Positions 1 through 23,083 of a stretch of DNA of 32,016 nucleotides are shown here, piece by piece. Each line of letters starts with the position of its first letter. Position 1 is the stretch's first letter. A program made the translations under genes and the position numbers. The stretch is taken from positions 1 to 32,016 of the forward strand of contig WAKX01000022.1 in the NCBI GenBank assembly GCA_015523125.1, in the 5' to 3' direction. The notes beneath the pieces were generated by a model. The model worked only from the letters and a program-made list of their open reading frames with translations, had not been told where the DNA came from and ran no database searches. This DNA comes from DHVE2 group archaeon (lineage in GTDB: Archaea > Thermoplasmatota > Thermoplasmata > Thermoplasmatales > Aciduliprofundaceae).

Positions 1-82
1 CCCACTCCTCCGGGAGTTCGCCGAGCTCGGTTTTCTTTAATTTCCGTTTCGTATTTAATCCAAGTTCTTTACTTTCTGACAT
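1..82 (-). CDS. hsdS: Type I restriction-modification specificity subunit HsdS, N-terminal 27 residues (truncated by window edge)
   Basis: Minus-strand reading from the ATG at 82 gives 27 residues with no stop before the window edge. They end in Leu-Gly-Glu-Leu-Pro-Glu-Glu-Trp, the kind of lead-in that opens the first target-recognition domain of HsdS proteins (typically a 'lG-x-lPe-x-W' pattern). HsdS recognises the DNA target and pairs with HsdM for methylation. The start shares one base with the stop of the gene before it (TAATG), and a GAGGGG ribosome site lies just upstream, so it is translationally coupled into the same operon. hsdM lies about 4.4 kb upstream in the same orientation, which supports the call. 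Only the first few percent of the gene is visible, so target domains cannot be judged. Confidence 0.72.
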   Translation of the reverse strand, partial: MSESKELGLNTKRKLKKTELGELPEEW

Positions 83-1971
83 TATGATCCCCTCTCTTTA
101 CTCTCTTTAAAATCTTCATCAATTTTCAAACTCATCCCATCAATATATTTTTTGAGTTCTTTTATCATTTTTTTATCTAACTTCTCATACTCAAAAAGCC
201 GAATTATGTCCTTCAGTTTTACATTTCTGAAAGCTCTGTTTACTTTCACCTCATCGGACATGACTTTATATCCGATGTTTTCCTTTTTGAGTATATTTAT
301 CTGTTCCGGTCTAATCGGATGCCAAGTGTAGAAAAATCCAATTTTTCTCTTTTCAGAGGGATATTTTTTGATTTTGTTTTTTAGTTTTTCAATTTCAGTC
401 CCTAAATCATAATTGCTCAGCTCTGTTTTACACTCAATTATTTTTATCTGCTTTTCGTCTTCTATTAGAATATCATGTTCCAAGCCATTTATTTTTTGCC
501 TCCAAACCACTCGCTTATCATTGTCAAAGGATTCCATATAATACACCAGCATCTCCAAAAATGCACCTTTTATATCCTCAAGCAATAATCTCTCAAAGGA
601 CGGATGCATGGTTAGTGCTCTCCACAACTCAAGTTTAGATTTTAAAGGTGATTTGCTCATTAAATATTTCCTGAATTCTTCTTTTGAAATTTCATATTCT
701 GTAATTTCTATCTCATCCCAGTACTTATCTAAATGCTGCTCTATTAGATTATATAACGAAAAATTAAATCCAGAATAGTCGCCGCAGCAATCTAAAAATA
801 TGATCCATCCCGAATAGTCCGCAATACTTCCTCTACTCTCTATTAATATGCCATAGGAATAATCGTGTCCCATATTGTTTGGGTGTATGAATTTTATAAC
901 GAGAAGCTTATCCTCAATTTCATATTCTCGTCTAATATGAATGTTGCCAACAAACAAAGAGAGTATTGTTGGGGTACTATTGAAAATAAGCCCATTTGAA
1001 GAATCAATGACTTCCACAGAATACCACAATAGCAAATAATCCAGATACTCAGATGTACCCAACTTGAGAGTGCTAGGTTTTTCTAACAACTTACCAAATA
1101 ATGATTTGGGAACTGTGGAGGATATAAAAAATAATGGAACTGCACCTAGAAGACCTCCTATTTTTGATTCTATAGGATTGATAATCTCTTTCTCAATAAT
1201 TTCAAAGTATTCATCCAGTTTGACAGTTGAATTTACATTATGCATATTTATAAGTGAGGTATTTTTAATTTTATCGCCTAATAACATGTGCCAGATATAT
1301 TGTAGAGTGTAGGCGTATCCTCTTAATCCCTTCCTCCATTTATCTGTAAACTCAAGTTCCATATACCACCATGAAGGTTTGCCATCAAAGGGGTTTAGAA
1401 TTATTCCCTGGGGATAACCCTGTCTTAGGTCATCTAAAAAGGTAAACACACAATCTATAGTAGCATAATTTAAAAGCTCTGATTTTGAAACGGATATATT
1501 CCTATTCGGCTCAGCATATTCTTCGTATATATTCCTAAAAATTTCGAGGACATTATCACGAAATAACTTTACCGATTTCTTTAACTCCTCTGGAGTTTTT
1601 GAATTTATTACTTTCCTTCTGAACTTATCCAAATTTTTTATTAGATGTGATTTCTCGCAAGTTGATGGAAACTTATTCATTGGAGTACCATTAAATCTCG
1701 CACGATAAAATACAAAATCCTCCTTAAGACCTAAATCTTGTTCAATAGCAAGCAAATAAATGAACGTGTTAAGTGAAGATCCCAATAGAATTTTGAACCC
1801 CTCAAAAACCTCAGGTAATATCATTTTATAATTGCTCCATAACCACTTCTCAAAGTCCTCTACATTCATAGCAATATTAAGCGCATTCCATGAGCCTAGC
1901 ATTAAACTGAATATCTCAGAGCCTAGTGAGTTGTAATCTCTGTCTGTTTTCTGAGATTTGTTTTTAGGCAT
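82..1971 (-). CDS. 629-aa PD-(D/E)XK nuclease-like protein inside a type I R-M operon
   Basis: The start is the ATG at 1971 rather than a longer in-frame reading that runs back into the upstream gene: a GGAGGTG ribosome site lies 6 nt before it, and it overlaps the upstream stop by 8 bp. The protein is 629 aa with no signal peptide. Residues 1-480 match nothing I recognise. The C-terminal part carries a restriction-endonuclease-fold signature: Glu-His-Asp500 on one strand, then Ile-Ile-Glu513-Cys-Lys515, i.e. D-x12-E-x-K, followed by a Lys/Glu-rich helix and another beta strand (Lys-Ile-Gly-Phe-Phe-Tyr). This suggests a metal-dependent nuclease, but the substrate is unknown. It lies between a membrane protein and hsdS and overlaps both, so it is probably co-produced with the R-M system. 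It is not a canonical HsdR: no Walker or DEAD motifs are seen. Confidence 0.6.
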   Translation of the reverse strand: MPKNKSQKTDRDYNSLGSEIFSLMLGSWNALNIAMNVEDFEKWLWSNYKMILPEVFEGFKILLGSSLNTFIYLLAIEQDLGLKEDFVFYRARFNGTPMNKFPSTCEKSHLIKNLDKFRRKVINSKTPEELKKSVKLFRDNVLEIFRNIYEEYAEPNRNISVSKSELLNYATIDCVFTFLDDLRQGYPQGIILNPFDGKPSWWYMELEFTDKWRKGLRGYAYTLQYIWHMLLGDKIKNTSLINMHNVNSTVKLDEYFEIIEKEIINPIESKIGGLLGAVPLFFISSTVPKSLFGKLLEKPSTLKLGTSEYLDYLLLWYSVEVIDSSNGLIFNSTPTILSLFVGNIHIRREYEIEDKLLVIKFIHPNNMGHDYSYGILIESRGSIADYSGWIIFLDCCGDYSGFNFSLYNLIEQHLDKYWDEIEITEYEISKEEFRKYLMSKSPLKSKLELWRALTMHPSFERLLLEDIKGAFLEMLVYYMESFDNDKRVVWRQKINGLEHDILIEDEKQIKIIECKTELSNYDLGTEIEKLKNKIKKYPSEKRKIGFFYTWHPIRPEQINILKKENIGYKVMSDEVKVNRAFRNVKLKDIIRLFEYEKLDKKMIKELKKYIDGMSLKIDEDFKESKERGS

Positions 1972-2992
1972 TGCGGGCACCTCCAAATTTTGACATGTGC
2001 GATAGAACCTCCTCAAATGCTTCAACCCAGCAATCGGTAAAACTCTCCGGCTTCTCCTTTCTCTCCGGCAACTCATTTTCTACTCTTGTTACCATACTTT
2101 CTATTTCCTCAAAAAGATAAAGATTACCTAAGATTGCATTTCGAAGCTCTGTAAAGTCAAGCTTTTCGATATCATTTTTAATTTCCTCAACCTTTTCCTT
2201 AAAATATGATTCGCACAGCTCAATATACAGAGCTTTATCTTTCTTATCTAATTCCTCCAATGCCATTTCTGTTATTTTTATTTCAGAGTCTTCATCCGGT
2301 TTATACGGAAATGCAACGGCTATTTTTTTACTTCTCTCCAGACGCATTAAAATAGGAAATCCCCCTATTGCATTTTTCCTTTTTTTAGCGTTTATTTTTT
2401 CATAAAGCGTTGAATTTTTGTGATTGATGTAGTTTAAAAAATCAAAATACGATATTTTGGAAAATATATTCTTAAATGTTTGTGTGAACGATTTCAGTAC
2501 TTCATCGCTTATTTTTTCTCTATAATACCGCAGATAGAATTGAAATAATCCCGCCAATATTCCTATTGCTGAGATAACACTTACATATTCCGTTATCGAA
2601 TAGTCGAAATGCACAAACCCCAATAAAGAAATCAAACCGATATATCCAACCCATACAATTAAAATGAGAAACAAATCATTGAGGATATTGAAAAAGGATA
2701 AGCGCAAATAAGCAAGGAATTTATCTCTTTTACCTGATTCAAAAACCCATTCCCAAACTTTTTCGGATTCGAATTCATTTGCTGATTTCGATAAAAACCA
2801 TTTCGTCTTTACTAAGATTGCAGATAATAGTAAACCAATAACAAAAATAGTGATGGCTTCAATAACGCTGTTTATAGACAAAATAACGCAGTATAATGCA
2901 AAAATGATTAAGTTAGCAAATAAAAATGATGCCCTTTCGATATAGGTAAGCTTACGTTTAAAATATCTTAAACTTCTTTTATTTGTGCTCAT
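1964..2992 (-). CDS. Four-helix membrane protein with charged cytoplasmic domain, R-M-locus associated
   Basis: 342 aa. The start at 2992 has an AAGGAGGAT ribosome site 4-5 nt upstream. The N-terminal half has four likely membrane segments at about residues 21-40, 43-61, 99-126 and 134-154, with a basic N-terminus (RYFKRK) and a charged 35-residue loop between the second and third. Residues 155-342 are soluble, helical and charge-rich (225-320), likely cytoplasmic. No enzyme motif is visible. The family is not recognised. It sits directly upstream of, and overlaps by 8 bp, the gene for a nuclease-like protein, in a type I R-M operon. A membrane protein beside a nuclease resembles the layout of many defence cassettes with membrane effectors, but that role here is inference from position only. 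It has its own probable promoter at about 3085-3092. Confidence 0.6.
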   Translation of the reverse strand: MSTNKRSLRYFKRKLTYIERASFLFANLIIFALYCVILSINSVIEAITIFVIGLLLSAILVKTKWFLSKSANEFESEKVWEWVFESGKRDKFLAYLRLSFFNILNDLFLILIVWVGYIGLISLLGFVHFDYSITEYVSVISAIGILAGLFQFYLRYYREKISDEVLKSFTQTFKNIFSKISYFDFLNYINHKNSTLYEKINAKKRKNAIGGFPILMRLERSKKIAVAFPYKPDEDSEIKITEMALEELDKKDKALYIELCESYFKEKVEEIKNDIEKLDFTELRNAILGNLYLFEEIESMVTRVENELPERKEKPESFTDCWVEAFEEVLSHMSKFGGARNA

Positions 2993-3145: not shown

Positions 3146-3153
3146 TACATATA
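3146..3153 (+). promoter_or_regulatory. Candidate TATA box for a small RNA
   Basis: Plus-strand TACATATA centred near 3149.5, about 26 nt before the first base pair of the predicted RNA fold at 3173. This is the usual archaeal TATA-to-start distance. Confidence 0.4.
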
Positions 3154-3172
3154 CTCGAGTAAATTGCTCTTT

Positions 3173-3237
3173 GCGGATAAGCCTCCGGCTCGCGCTGTGT
3201 ACCGGATGGTGCACGTCTCCCCGCGCCGTGGGGCCGC
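3173..3237 (+). ncRNA. Candidate structured small RNA, GC-rich, four stems
   Basis: A 65-nt block is markedly GC-rich against AT-rich flanks, often a mark of structured RNA in AT-rich archaeal DNA. On the plus strand it folds as a closed multibranch: outer stem GCGG (3173-3176) with CCGC (3234-3237); hairpin AGCC/GGCT (3180-3190, loop TCC); a 7-bp hairpin 3197-3203 with 3208-3214 (loop GGAT); and a 6-bp hairpin 3219-3224 with 3228-3233 (loop GCC). Two pairs are G-U wobbles (3200-3211 and 3223-3229) that would be C-A mismatches in the complement, which favours the plus strand. A TATA-like box lies about 26 nt upstream, and a T-tract (TTTTTCTCTTT) follows at once. It is not a tRNA: there are no standard arm lengths or T-loop. 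Function is unknown. A 66-codon minus-strand frame (3059-3259) overlaps it. Confidence 0.45.
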
Positions 3238-3319
3238 TTTTTCTCTTTCTGTCGCTCATCTATTTCACCTCAATTTTTCGGGGAAAGATTTATTTACCAT
3301 GATATTCATACACCTCCAT

Positions 3320-3348
3320 GCAGGTAGTTCCTCGTCGGCATTACCTGC
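3320..3348. repeat. Inverted repeat in the gap after the 361-aa gene
   Basis: GCAGGTA (3320-3326) pairs perfectly with TACCTGC (3342-3348) around a 15-nt loop. A 9-bp palindrome-like CCGA-A-TCGG adjoins it at 3349-3357. It lies about 25 nt past the stop of the minus-strand 361-aa gene. No T-run follows on that strand, so it does not look like a terminator. It could be an mRNA processing or stability element, or a protein site. Confidence 0.35.
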
Positions 3349-3372: not shown

Positions 3373-4458
3373 TCAAATACCACTTTTTATTTTTCTGTTG
3401 AGTTCTTTTCCTTTGATCACCTTTATATCGTACATATCTTGATATGTTTTAGCTATCTTCTTAGATTTTTCACCCACATATACCATAATATCCCCGTTTT
3501 TTATTTTGTCCGTATCAATGTAAGGATCAAATAGCTGAAAACTTCCGTTCAACATAAATGCGTATGTTGCAGCGTTAATATACACGTCGGTTTTTGGTAG
3601 AATTTTTGAAAATTTAATCTCTTTTTCTTCTTCGTTAATATGAACCACGCCTTTGAAATATTCCTTGATACGATCAACCAATATGAAGACCATCGGATGT
3701 GCTAAATAATTAGAAAAATTTATTTTGTTATCATTGTACCACACATATTTGTTAAGAACTTTGTCATCCAAAAATCTGACATTAACGGGAAAATAGCCGT
3801 CCCAAACCTTTTCAATGTTTTCTGGTTTCAGATGCAACTTTTGATTTTTTAGTTTTATATCCGTTAAAAAAGCAATTAAATCCGCAATAGATATTAAAGG
3901 ATTACACTCATCTCCGTGGGAGTAAATTTTCATATTGGTTCCTACTCGCATCACTAAATCATCCCATGCACGGGTACTTTTAGAGGAAAAACTATCTATG
4001 AGATACTTTGTACTTTCATCGTATTTGGGCAGTGCTGTCCATGCAGTCAGATAGGAGAACATGGGAGATAAATTCCTCAAAAAATCCTCTGTTTTTATCT
4101 CTTTTACAGGTGCGTATACACCTCCCACAGTAACAAAATTCACCTTCTTTGGAGGTAATATAACATAGGACACATGCACATAATCAATAAACGGCGTAAT
4201 TTCATCAATAATATGATCCGCAAACGGTATAGCCCTTTTCATAGTAAACTCCTCAATAAGATCGCGGAAAGAGTAAATTAATCGATTTGTATATGACTCG
4301 AAACTTTTTTTGTATTTTTGGATGAGCTCTCCATACTGATTTTTAATTTCTTCGTCAGAACCATTAAATTTAACTCCCACTCCTAAAGGCGTATAAAACT
4401 CATGACCTACAACGTTTCGAACTCTAAACTCCTTTGCGTCAAAGGCCATACTTCTCAT
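3373..4458 (-). CDS. Unknown 361-aa protein co-translated with HsdM
   Basis: Starts at ATG 4458, overlapping the hsdM stop (ATGA) with a GGGTGAT ribosome site, so it is very likely made together with HsdM. It is 361 aa, soluble, with no signal or membrane segment. I do not recognise the family with confidence. Around residues 180-200 it has His-Gly-Asp-Glu-Cys-Asn-Pro-Leu-Ile-Ser-Ile-Ala-Asp-Leu-Ile-Ala, resembling the 'Q/S-I-A-D-L-I-A' helix near the C-terminus of DUF3800-type RNase H-fold proteins. An acidic strand (Asp-Glu-Ile...Phe-Ile-Asp-Tyr) at about 85-95 could be its partner. The resemblance is weak and should be treated as a hint only. Position suggests a role in the R-M system or a linked defence function. 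A 319-bp gap separates it from the next gene of the locus. Confidence 0.55.
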   Translation of the reverse strand: MRSMAFDAKEFRVRNVVGHEFYTPLGVGVKFNGSDEEIKNQYGELIQKYKKSFESYTNRLIYSFRDLIEEFTMKRAIPFADHIIDEITPFIDYVHVSYVILPPKKVNFVTVGGVYAPVKEIKTEDFLRNLSPMFSYLTAWTALPKYDESTKYLIDSFSSKSTRAWDDLVMRVGTNMKIYSHGDECNPLISIADLIAFLTDIKLKNQKLHLKPENIEKVWDGYFPVNVRFLDDKVLNKYVWYNDNKINFSNYLAHPMVFILVDRIKEYFKGVVHINEEEKEIKFSKILPKTDVYINAATYAFMLNGSFQLFDPYIDTDKIKNGDIMVYVGEKSKKIAKTYQDMYDIKVIKGKELNRKIKSGI

Positions 4459-6170
4459 TTTATCACCCTCAGATACTCCTCGATCTTCCCGTTTATTTTT
4501 CTCATCTCCTCGTCAATTCTCTTTATCTCTTCCCATTCTTTTTCCACATCGATCTCTTCTTCCTCGATCTCCGGGAACGCGTAGAGTGTCACGTTGAGAT
4601 TGTAATCGTTATCCTTGATTTCCTCTAAATCCACAACCCTCGCAAATCCGTCGTCGTCGTTGAAATCTTCGTACGCTTTTACTATCCGCTCTATATTCTT
4701 CTCGCTCAAAATGTTCAATTTGCGCACGTCCGGGTGCTTCTCGTACTCCTGCGAAGCGTTGATGAACAGTATTTTCCCTTTCCTCTCCTCCTTCTTTTCC
4801 TTGTTGAACACTATTATCGCCCCGGGCGCGCCGGTGTTGTAGAACAGCTTCTCGGGAAGTAAAATAACCGCCTCCACCAGATCCTTCTCAACGATTTTCT
4901 CCCTTATTTTTTTCTCCCTTCCCCCGCGGAACAGTGCGCCATTATCTATGACTACGCCTACCATTCTCCGCGATGAATAAAGCATGTGCTGTATCCACGC
5001 CCAGTCGGCGCTCTGCTTCGTTGGAAAACCGAACTTAAAGCGTTCCTGCCAGAATTCGCCGTTCTTTAGCTTATTCTCATCGTAGCCGTCCTGATTCCAC
5101 GGTGGATTTGCAATCACAATGTCAAAAATTCTGGGCTTTCCCCCGTGCATTATTTTGGGATAGAGCAGGGAATCACCTACCCGAATATCCGCGCTCTTGA
5201 TGTCGTGGATTATTAGATTCATCTTGCAGAGCCCGAAGGTAACCGGATTGTACTCCTGCCCGTATAGAAATAGCTTTCTCACCTCCTTCCCGTATTTCTC
5301 CTCCACATTCCGATAAGACTCAATTAACATACCTCCAGAGCCAACGGCGGGATCGTACACCTTCTCGCCGGGCTTCGGGGCAACTATGCGAACCAGCAGC
5401 TTAATCACTTCCCGCGGCGTGTAAACTTCTCCCTCCTTGGCTTTGAGAGGCGCGAAATAGCGGAGAATCCATTCGTAGGCATCGCCCAAAACATCCGAAG
5501 AAACCGTTCCTAAATTGATCTCGCTGAATATCTCCATCAATTGATGCAAAATCTGCAAATTCTCTCGATTTGTTGTAAATGATATGAACTCCACGCTGTT
5601 GAACACTCCCCGCAGCTCCGGATTCATCTCGGCGATTTTCTTCATCGCATTGCTGAGCCGCTCTGGAAGGGTGTTCACATCCTTTCTTATCTCGTCCCAT
5701 AGAAACTCTTCGGGAATTGAGAACGTGTGAAAATCCGGATTTTTCGCTTCTTCCTTTGCGATTTTCTCGGGTATCCCGTCTTCAATCAGCTCCTGCACCT
5801 TGTTCCTGTACTCTTCCATCCACCTGTCGCTTATCCTTTTGAGAAATAGGAGAATGAGAATGTATTTGTAATCAACCCGAGTCCTGATCAGATCAGCAGC
5901 CTTCTTCAAAAGCCCTTCTAAATCCCCACGGGTGAACTCTTCCTTTTTCCTCACTAACCGGTAAATTTTCACCCGCCTATCCTCGATATCCACCCGCTCT
6001 CTTAAAAGCCCTTCTTTCTTTATGTCGGATAGAATTCTGGACACTTCCTCAATCTCATCGCCAAATTTCTCATTCAACACGCGATACGCTTCCTCGCGCC
6101 CGAACTCTTCATCTCCGAAGTTCTCCAAAAGGCACTCGTATCTTCTCTGAATCCATGGTTTTAGCCCCAT
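4455..6170 (-). CDS. hsdM: Type I restriction-modification methyltransferase subunit HsdM with N-terminal winged-helix extension
   Basis: Adenine N6-methyltransferase subunit of a type I R-M system, acting on DNA with HsdS. 571 aa from ATG 6170. A GTG two codons upstream is possible, but the TATA box centred at 6196.5 puts the transcript start on the 6170 ATG, which suggests a leaderless message. Residues about 8-75 look like a winged helix (alternating helices, then a charged beta wing), which usual HsdM lacks. The HsdM N-terminal helical domain follows (about 83-230). The SAM site Asp-Pro-Ala-Val-Gly-Ser-Gly-Gly is at 273-280, preceded by Tyr-Thr-Pro-Arg-Glu-Val. The catalytic motif Asn-Pro-Pro-Trp is at 355-358. 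First gene of the locus; it overlaps the next gene by 4 bp. The motifs are intact, so it is probably active. Confidence 0.95.
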   Translation of the reverse strand: MGLKPWIQRRYECLLENFGDEEFGREEAYRVLNEKFGDEIEEVSRILSDIKKEGLLRERVDIEDRRVKIYRLVRKKEEFTRGDLEGLLKKAADLIRTRVDYKYILILLFLKRISDRWMEEYRNKVQELIEDGIPEKIAKEEAKNPDFHTFSIPEEFLWDEIRKDVNTLPERLSNAMKKIAEMNPELRGVFNSVEFISFTTNRENLQILHQLMEIFSEINLGTVSSDVLGDAYEWILRYFAPLKAKEGEVYTPREVIKLLVRIVAPKPGEKVYDPAVGSGGMLIESYRNVEEKYGKEVRKLFLYGQEYNPVTFGLCKMNLIIHDIKSADIRVGDSLLYPKIMHGGKPRIFDIVIANPPWNQDGYDENKLKNGEFWQERFKFGFPTKQSADWAWIQHMLYSSRRMVGVVIDNGALFRGGREKKIREKIVEKDLVEAVILLPEKLFYNTGAPGAIIVFNKEKKEERKGKILFINASQEYEKHPDVRKLNILSEKNIERIVKAYEDFNDDDGFARVVDLEEIKDNDYNLNVTLYAFPEIEEEEIDVEKEWEEIKRIDEEMRKINGKIEEYLRVIK

Positions 6171-6192
6171 AACCACAAATCGCTATAGTACT

Positions 6193-22461: not shown

Positions 22462-22767
22462 ATGAAGATGTCGCACGGTCCAAAGGCAAGATCTCGTAAG
22501 AAAATGACGAAGAAGGTAAGAGAGAAAGGTTTACCTCCGATAAGAAGGTATCTGGCAAAATTCGAAGTCGGTGATTATGCAGCCGTGGCCATAAACCCAT
22601 CGGAGCACTACGGATTCCCGCATCACAGATTTCAGGGGAGAACGGGAGTCATCGTTGGTACCCAAGGAGAATGCTACAAACTGAAGATAAGGGACGGAGG
22701 ACTGGAAAAGATTCTCATCGTGCACCCTGTGCACTTGAAGAAGATTGAGGTGCAGAAGGTGCAGTAA
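22462..22767 (+). CDS. rpl21e: 50S ribosomal protein L21e
   Basis: Large-subunit ribosomal protein found in archaea and eukaryotes. 101 aa, the normal archaeal length. The start is ATG 22462, chosen because GGTGAT lies 4 nt before it, as in other genes here; an ATG two codons later is possible. Basic N-terminus with Ser-His-Gly-Pro-Lys-Ala-Arg-Ser-Arg-Lys-Lys, then the SH3-like core with Phe-Gln-Gly-Arg-Thr-Gly-Val-Ile-Val-Gly and the final Val-His-Pro-Val-His-Leu-Lys segment, all typical of L21e. First gene of a conserved archaeal run with rpoF and a DUF655 gene. Confidence 0.95.
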   Translation: MKMSHGPKARSRKKMTKKVREKGLPPIRRYLAKFEVGDYAAVAINPSEHYGFPHHRFQGRTGVIVGTQGECYKLKIRDGGLEKILIVHPVHLKKIEVQKVQ

Positions 22768-22768
22768 A

Positions 22769-23083
22769 ATGAGAAAGTACCTTACTTTAGCGGAAGTGAA
22801 AGAGCTCCTCATGGAAGAAAATGAAAAAAGGGAATTAAACGCTTTGCAAAAGGCCGCTTTGGCACATTCGGAGGCGTTCGTTAAATTGAGCGTGGAGGAT
22901 ACAAAGAAGTTAGTGGATGAACTCCTAAAATTGGATTTTGTAACGGAGAGGCATGCCGTGAAGATTGCGGATATTTTACCCGTGCATCCTGATCAGGTTC
23001 GAGCAATATACGCAAAAGAGAAAATCGTGCTGCCTCCAGAACAGATAAAAGAAATTTTAGATGTGGTGGCAAAATACTTATAA
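22769..23083 (+). CDS. rpoF: DNA-directed RNA polymerase subunit F (Rpb4 homologue)
   Basis: Forms the stalk of archaeal RNA polymerase with subunit E. 104 aa from ATG 22769, one base after the L21e stop; a GGTG ribosome site lies inside the L21e end. The pattern fits the Rpb4/RpoF HRDC-like fold: an N-terminal Tyr-Leu-Thr-Leu-Ala-Glu-Val-Lys start, helices, then Ile-Leu-Pro-x-His-Pro-Asp-Gln-Val-Arg-Ala-Ile-Tyr and a Leu-x-Pro-Glu-Gln-Ile-Lys-Glu-Ile-Leu end, the most conserved part of the family. The L21e-rpoF-DUF655 order is widespread in euryarchaea, supporting the call. Confidence 0.93.
   Translation: MRKYLTLAEVKELLMEENEKRELNALQKAALAHSEAFVKLSVEDTKKLVDELLKLDFVTERHAVKIADILPVHPDQVRAIYAKEKIVLPPEQIKEILDVVAKYL

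Follow-up and report, generated by a model that had tools for sequence, protein, structure and literature searches.

We found that positions 3171-3239 (plus strand) of the window, the 32,016-nt stretch of archaeal DNA analysed here, are one copy of a structured archaeal RNA family about 70 nt long. Within the host's phylum the family occurs in over 30 genomes; it is also present on one Methanobacterium plasmid and in two archaeal head-tail virus contigs. Outside the host's own family the RNA typically lies tail-to-tail with a DUF3800 gene whose product measures about 190-230 aa and carries the motif DESGDLG. In the window the RNA is solo and placed antisense within a type I restriction-modification (R-M)/defence locus, as it is in several related genomes. 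Taken together, the family, its strand, structure, promoter and DUF3800 pairing, and its solo and viral copies are close to certain. DUF3800 is widespread with no role assigned to it, and recurs beside structured RNAs and in defence settings. With an archaeal RNA family that is well supported and strictly linked in space to DUF3800, the roles of both become directly testable; plasmid II of Methanobacterium congolense supplies a cultivated example of the paired unit, and the solo R-M and viral copies add to the test cases.

The RNA block of the window

Coordinates of the RNA and its neighbors are given in Table 1. The original prediction described a GC-rich block in AT-rich DNA, resembling no tRNA or other known RNA, as a structured RNA gene on the plus strand, opposite to the R-M operon. 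This description held: the GC fraction is 0.70 across 3171-3239 in an AT-rich window, ARAGORN and Rfam find no tRNA in the block, an Rfam search of the RNA and its relatives matched no family, the R-M genes run on the other strand, and covariation in relatives, strand-specific wobble pairing and a fixed-distance promoter identify a plus-strand RNA gene. The RNA is single-copy in its 1.54-Mb genome (G000, of which the window is contig 22). Covariance model R1 scores it at 91.9 bits (E 9.9e-22) and model R2 at 67.7 bits, the window sequence being in the training set of both.

Folding energy, put forward earlier as a check, proved unremarkable against shuffled sequences (z -0.79 for 3166-3252 and -1.44 for 3178-3242). 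Because these values lie within the shuffled range, folding energy alone would miss this RNA, and only comparative evidence decides. Two other folding signals were seen in the window: an inverted repeat, GCAGGTA...TACCTGC, that separates the antisense ORF from the 361-aa gene (3320-3348; z -2.3, plus strand), and the strongest GC-corrected signal of the window, around 22711-22775 (5.2 sd on the plus strand, with the minus strand also strong).

Table 1. Features of the window around the RNA gene
Feature	Position	Strand	Basis or remark
TATA-like promoter box ACATATAC	3147-3154	+	sequence inspection and family-wide box
RNA	3171-3239	+	R1/R2 model positions 1-69; cmsearch, family covariation
Closing stem, GCGG with CCGC	3173-3176 with 3234-3237	+	covariance model
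5' bulge AUAAG (family consensus GGUAAGNCC)			followed by the interrupted middle helix and terminal hairpin
Terminal hairpin GUGUACC-GGAU-GGUGCAC	3197-3214	+	most conserved part of the RNA family
T-rich tract after the closing stem	3238-3249	+	possible transcription end
Antisense ORF, 66 codons	3059-3259	-	Shine-Dalgarno-like GAGGTG; the RNA family does not conserve its frame
664-aa protein, weak nuclease-like (PD-DExK) similarity	82-2076	-	PADLOC CARF_PDDEXK 4.7e-4 only
342-aa protein, no family match	1964-2992	-	on the RNA's 5' side; N-terminal segments hydrophobic by eye
361-aa protein, no family match, not DUF3800	3373-4458	-	between hsdM and the RNA
hsdM-like type I DNA methyltransferase	4455-6176	-	PF02384 3.5e-112, PF12161 2e-16; first R-M gene

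Relatives and consensus fold

Relatives match the window at 96% over 200 nt (G007), 97% over 58 nt (G009) and, in another genus, 83% over 69 nt (G016). Conservation between the window and its relatives is confined to the RNA block, and the flanks differ. R1, built on five sequences, found matches at E <=1 in 48 of 400 genomes of the class, about 20 of them below 1e-4; its weak matches (L050, L052, L055-L057) aligned poorly and were excluded from R2 and from later counts. R2, built on 38 sequences, found matches at E <=0.01 in 24 of 390 genomes of the phylum, some of whose assemblies are incomplete, and 31 RNA places at 30 DUF3800 loci. Searched as DNA, the window region gave no match in plasmid and phage collections, and blastn of the consensus against plasmids gave chance matches only.

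The consensus fold is a single long interrupted hairpin: a 4-bp stem closes it, the middle helix is interrupted, and the terminal hairpin has 7-8 bp. The covariance search recommended in the original prediction found compensatory changes far above both controls: in the 41-sequence alignment 90% of cells are paired and double changes occur at 19 of 23 pairs, with a covariation score of 0.409 against 0.149 for shuffled and at most 0.086 for slid alignments. Such pairing counts are biased toward the model to which the alignments were fitted, although the margin remains large. Solo copies (15, assigned from gene context; assembly gaps could hide some DUF3800 partners) show 89.4% pairing, double changes at 13 of 23 pairs, and covariation of 0.300 against 0.128 shuffled and 0.182 at the best slide; the corresponding scores for DUF3800-linked copies are 0.386, 0.149 and 0.098. 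Six of the eight terminal hairpin pairs are invariant among the solo copies, and a U-G pair there is retained in all 15; double changes at this hairpin are present in the DUF3800-linked set. G-U pairs outnumber A-C pairs about 3:1, at 37 to 12 in the solo and 144 to 46 in the DUF3800 set, and the RNA therefore lies on the plus strand in the window.

The multibranch fold with three hairpins that had been drawn from the window sequence survives in part. Its closing stem and 7-bp hairpin are conserved. Its 4-bp and 6-bp side hairpins are not, being 51.7% paired in the 15 aligned solo copies, against 51.0% when shuffled, with no covariation. For this one sequence the multibranch is slightly lower in energy (-29.1 against -27.0 kcal/mol for the consensus fold), which makes that reading a reasonable one.

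The same strand carries the predicted TATA-like box upstream and T-tract downstream. Aligned on the RNA 5' end, the family has an upstream consensus of AAA at -33 to -31 and a TTTATA-like element at -28 to -22 (BRE/TATA). A box starts within -28 to -22 in 45 of 66 copies, compared with 1 of 66 in each of three 7-nt control intervals from -56 to -36; intervals closer to the RNA or much farther upstream contain as many as 10 of 66. In the window the box is some 4 nt closer to the RNA, was missed by the box-count pattern, and so is not among the 45. The fraction of T is 0.87 at the first base past the solo RNAs and 0.93 at the second. Judged from its fixed-distance BRE/TATA element, the RNA would be transcribed independently, as a small RNA gene.

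Alternatively, the conserved block could be coding sequence for a small protein on the minus strand (GPTARGDVHHPVHSASRGLTR), and a Shine-Dalgarno-led start codon does occur in some loci, among them all four close DHVE2 ones. However, the RNA copies range from 66 to 75 nt with indels that are not multiples of three, so that the frame is lost; a comparable read-through frame is absent from 4 of 15 solo copies; most codon changes between the window and G007 (one pair, compared by eye) are non-synonymous; and it is the RNA stems that co-vary. What is conserved is thus the RNA and not the 66-codon minus frame whose conservation had been named as grounds for rejecting the gene, and a coding explanation is extremely improbable. 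A protein search with the 66-aa product found close relatives only. Several solo loci, including the window at 3260-3273, have a Shine-Dalgarno sequence and start codon antisense to the RNA and just before it, and ribosomes may therefore read across the RNA in the R-M mRNA, possibly avoiding polarity.

Solo and viral copies

A search of the window genome for DUF3800 gave no match. Type I R-M or defence loci hold the RNA, in antisense orientation, in the host's family and in families f9, f18 and f29; genes for AbiEi/AbiEii, Schlafen AlbA_2/HATPase, NYN and PIN proteins neighbor the solo copies, and the RNA of G201 separates hsdM from hsdS in a set ordered hsdM-hsdS-hsdR. The solo RNAs appear functional, since the structure and, mostly, the promoter are kept. 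A putative link of the RNA to defence is strengthened by its DUF3800 partner elsewhere together with the recurrent R-M, AbiE and Schlafen-like neighbors.

Both viral copies are in contigs of archaeal head-tail viruses: one (L015, 1099-1171) is upstream of a terminase pair and the other (L110, 8763-8829) is among tail-type genes, as judged by eye. They have the same strand as the neighboring virus genes, no DUF3800 nearby, and no TATA box at the usual position; with no box and this orientation, they may come from viral transcripts. The L015 copy has both arms in common with the window RNA, a longer and compensated middle helix, and no antisense ORF. An 18-mer pattern for the hairpin matched viral contigs six times; L015 alone extends across the whole RNA, and the other five look like chance matches.

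The DUF3800 partner

A recognisable convergent DUF3800 gene accompanies 39 of the 56 copies in A7, at -13 to +14 nt in 33 of the 39; the commonest spacing is 3-7 nt. The other 17 include extra copies and copies beside disrupted or variant-motif DUF3800 genes. One 5.5-kb contig (L058, G251:C167, 2069-5437) holds four tandem, divergent units of DUF3800 and convergent RNA. M. congolense plasmid II has the same gene order, with the RNA convergent with DUF3800; by eye, about 115 nt are inserted into that RNA, whose 3' arm reaches its end close to the stop codon of DUF3800. In one genome (G060, L124) the RNA is kept and DUF3800 was not seen; in another (G059, L125) the RNA is kept with a short GESSDLG remnant (GESSD).

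The intact short DUF3800 genes of DESGDLG type that were examined carry the RNA or, in 10 genes by eye, its look-alike in the same place together with a TATA box. The RNA model has no match beside DUF3800 in families f11 and f17; the DUF3800 genes there (L132-L142) have a convergent TATA box, a UAAGNCC element and a GC hairpin past the stop (by eye), probably a related motif. This look-alike is seemingly present in two copies at L142 and L140. Longer DUF3800 proteins (250-280 aa) found in the same search had no RNA match.

Acidic residues of the DUF3800 protein are conserved. The protein matches the PADLOC phage-defence candidate PDC-M04A (1.8e-7), and a search of PDB with the DUF3800 profile found no solved relative. 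The fold of DUF3800 is that of RNase H, and an association with ncRNAs has been reported (PMC10910872). It has earlier been linked to ncRNAs and CRISPR loci, and is reported as an accessory to Cas12a2 and in VI-F/V-A2 loci (PMC10910872; PMC12669027). On a Ligilactobacillus salivarius plasmid (L152, 775-1228, minus strand) three Rfam salivarius-1 RNAs adjoin a DUF3800 gene, and are possible further DUF3800-linked RNAs.

Proposed function

Our preferred explanation is that the window holds an RNA gene of a DUF3800-paired family whose copy here acts as a solo antidote or regulator; as a whole it has about an even chance of being right. A structured RNA of about 70 nt would be made from its own archaeal promoter. 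Its family supplies the RNA of a compact pair of genes, the other gene encoding DUF3800, a predicted RNase-H-fold nuclease. The DUF3800 protein would bind the conserved terminal hairpin and the GGUAAG bulge, and the RNA would hold the nuclease inactive until infection upset the balance, much as an RNA antitoxin does. Going a step further, the solo copy in the window would most simply be a trans-acting antidote or regulator within the R-M/defence locus. Binding, inhibition and the antidote role are tentative, and we give them somewhat less than an even chance on what the sequences suggest. Copies that are solo or viral may have been kept as antidotes or as decoys. A bolder form of this proposal, in which an archaeal RNA-antitoxin/nuclease system of new layout (a nuclease gene with a convergent RNA gene under a promoter of its own) has seen its RNA spread alone into R-M loci as immunity while viral decoys defeat the nuclease, is unlikely.

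The antidote reading is modestly favored by an asymmetry: intact short DUF3800 genes were not seen without the RNA or its look-alike, while the RNA is often found without DUF3800 (in R-M/AbiE loci, the two viruses, and G059 and G060), as an antidote-toxin relation predicts. The asymmetry fits equally well a DUF3800 protein that needs the RNA as a cofactor; moreover, genomes with a solo RNA and no DUF3800 have no obvious threat, and an idle short antidote would be expected to decay. The RNA could instead belong to a working ribonucleoprotein, as scaffold or guide for targeting or cutting by DUF3800, with solo copies serving another protein in trans. That DUF3800 has an RNase H fold, is an accessory to Cas12a2, occurs in VI-F/V-A2 loci and was not seen without the RNA or look-alike would suit such a particle, but no variable guide-like segment was noticed, the best-conserved part is a closed hairpin, and the DNA next to the 3' end of the RNA is where the DUF3800 gene stops. 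We consider it rather doubtful.

Regulation in cis, with antisense transcription or a folded antisense region tuning the downstream R-M genes, would account for the antisense orientation of all checked chromosomal solo copies in R-M/AbiE loci and for the Shine-Dalgarno-led ORF that crosses the RNA in about half of the solo loci; yet the same structure and promoter are found in DUF3800 units without R-M genes, and the viral copies lie on the virus-gene strand, making regulation of the operon quite improbable. Cassettes of defence genes might also be recruited through the block, acting as an attC-like or REP-like recombination site in single-stranded DNA: its orientation to its neighbors is constant, gene-hairpin units form tandem arrays, genes vary on both sides, and the strand that bears the structure is not the gene strand, as with attC. 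A fixed-distance BRE/TATA promoter is expected of a transcript and not of such a site, though, and by inspection the ends have no integron R-box (GTTRRRY) and no integrase is consistently nearby; a recombination site is highly unlikely.

Comparison with known systems

The RNA resembles integron attC sites as a hairpin opposite the gene strand that follows each ORF in arrays. It differs in its conserved terminal hairpin and its own promoter, and the attC R'/R'' boxes (RYYYAAC / GTTRRRY) are absent by inspection from the aligned ends, GCGGGUAAG ... GGUCCGC. The omega RNAs of IS605/TnpB elements are likewise structured RNAs at the 3' end of a nuclease gene, but they share the gene's strand and overlap its end, whereas the archaeal RNA is on the opposite strand with its own promoter, and no guide was seen in it.

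Type III toxin-antitoxin systems (ToxIN, CptIN, TenpIN), which serve phage defence, offer a proposed likeness in a small structured RNA restraining a nuclease. Their antitoxin RNA is usually an array of tandem repeats, located upstream of the toxin within one operon. In contrast, the archaeal RNA is single, on the opposite strand and on the 3' side past the stop codon, and no sequence relation was seen.

Closest in kind are the Rfam DUF3800 RNA motifs, which like the archaeal family are small independent structured RNAs and, like most of that family but not the window copy, lie beside genes for DUF3800, with its RNase H fold. The Weinberg 2017 survey reportedly describes eleven (DUF3800-I to -XI); the models that we encountered are DUF3800-I (RF02969), -III (RF02962) and -IX (RF02968). 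The Rfam DUF3800 models gave no match to the window or to the relatives searched, even at a permissive E-value. In the bacterial DUF3800-I of Thiothrix (a sub-threshold match) the RNA is upstream of the gene on the same strand. The archaeal RNA is downstream and convergent, has an archaeal promoter, and also takes solo and viral forms, a contrast that rests on the Rfam models and this one bacterial example. While bacterial DUF3800-linked RNAs are already known, the archaeal RNA family and its arrangement with DUF3800 appear to be new.
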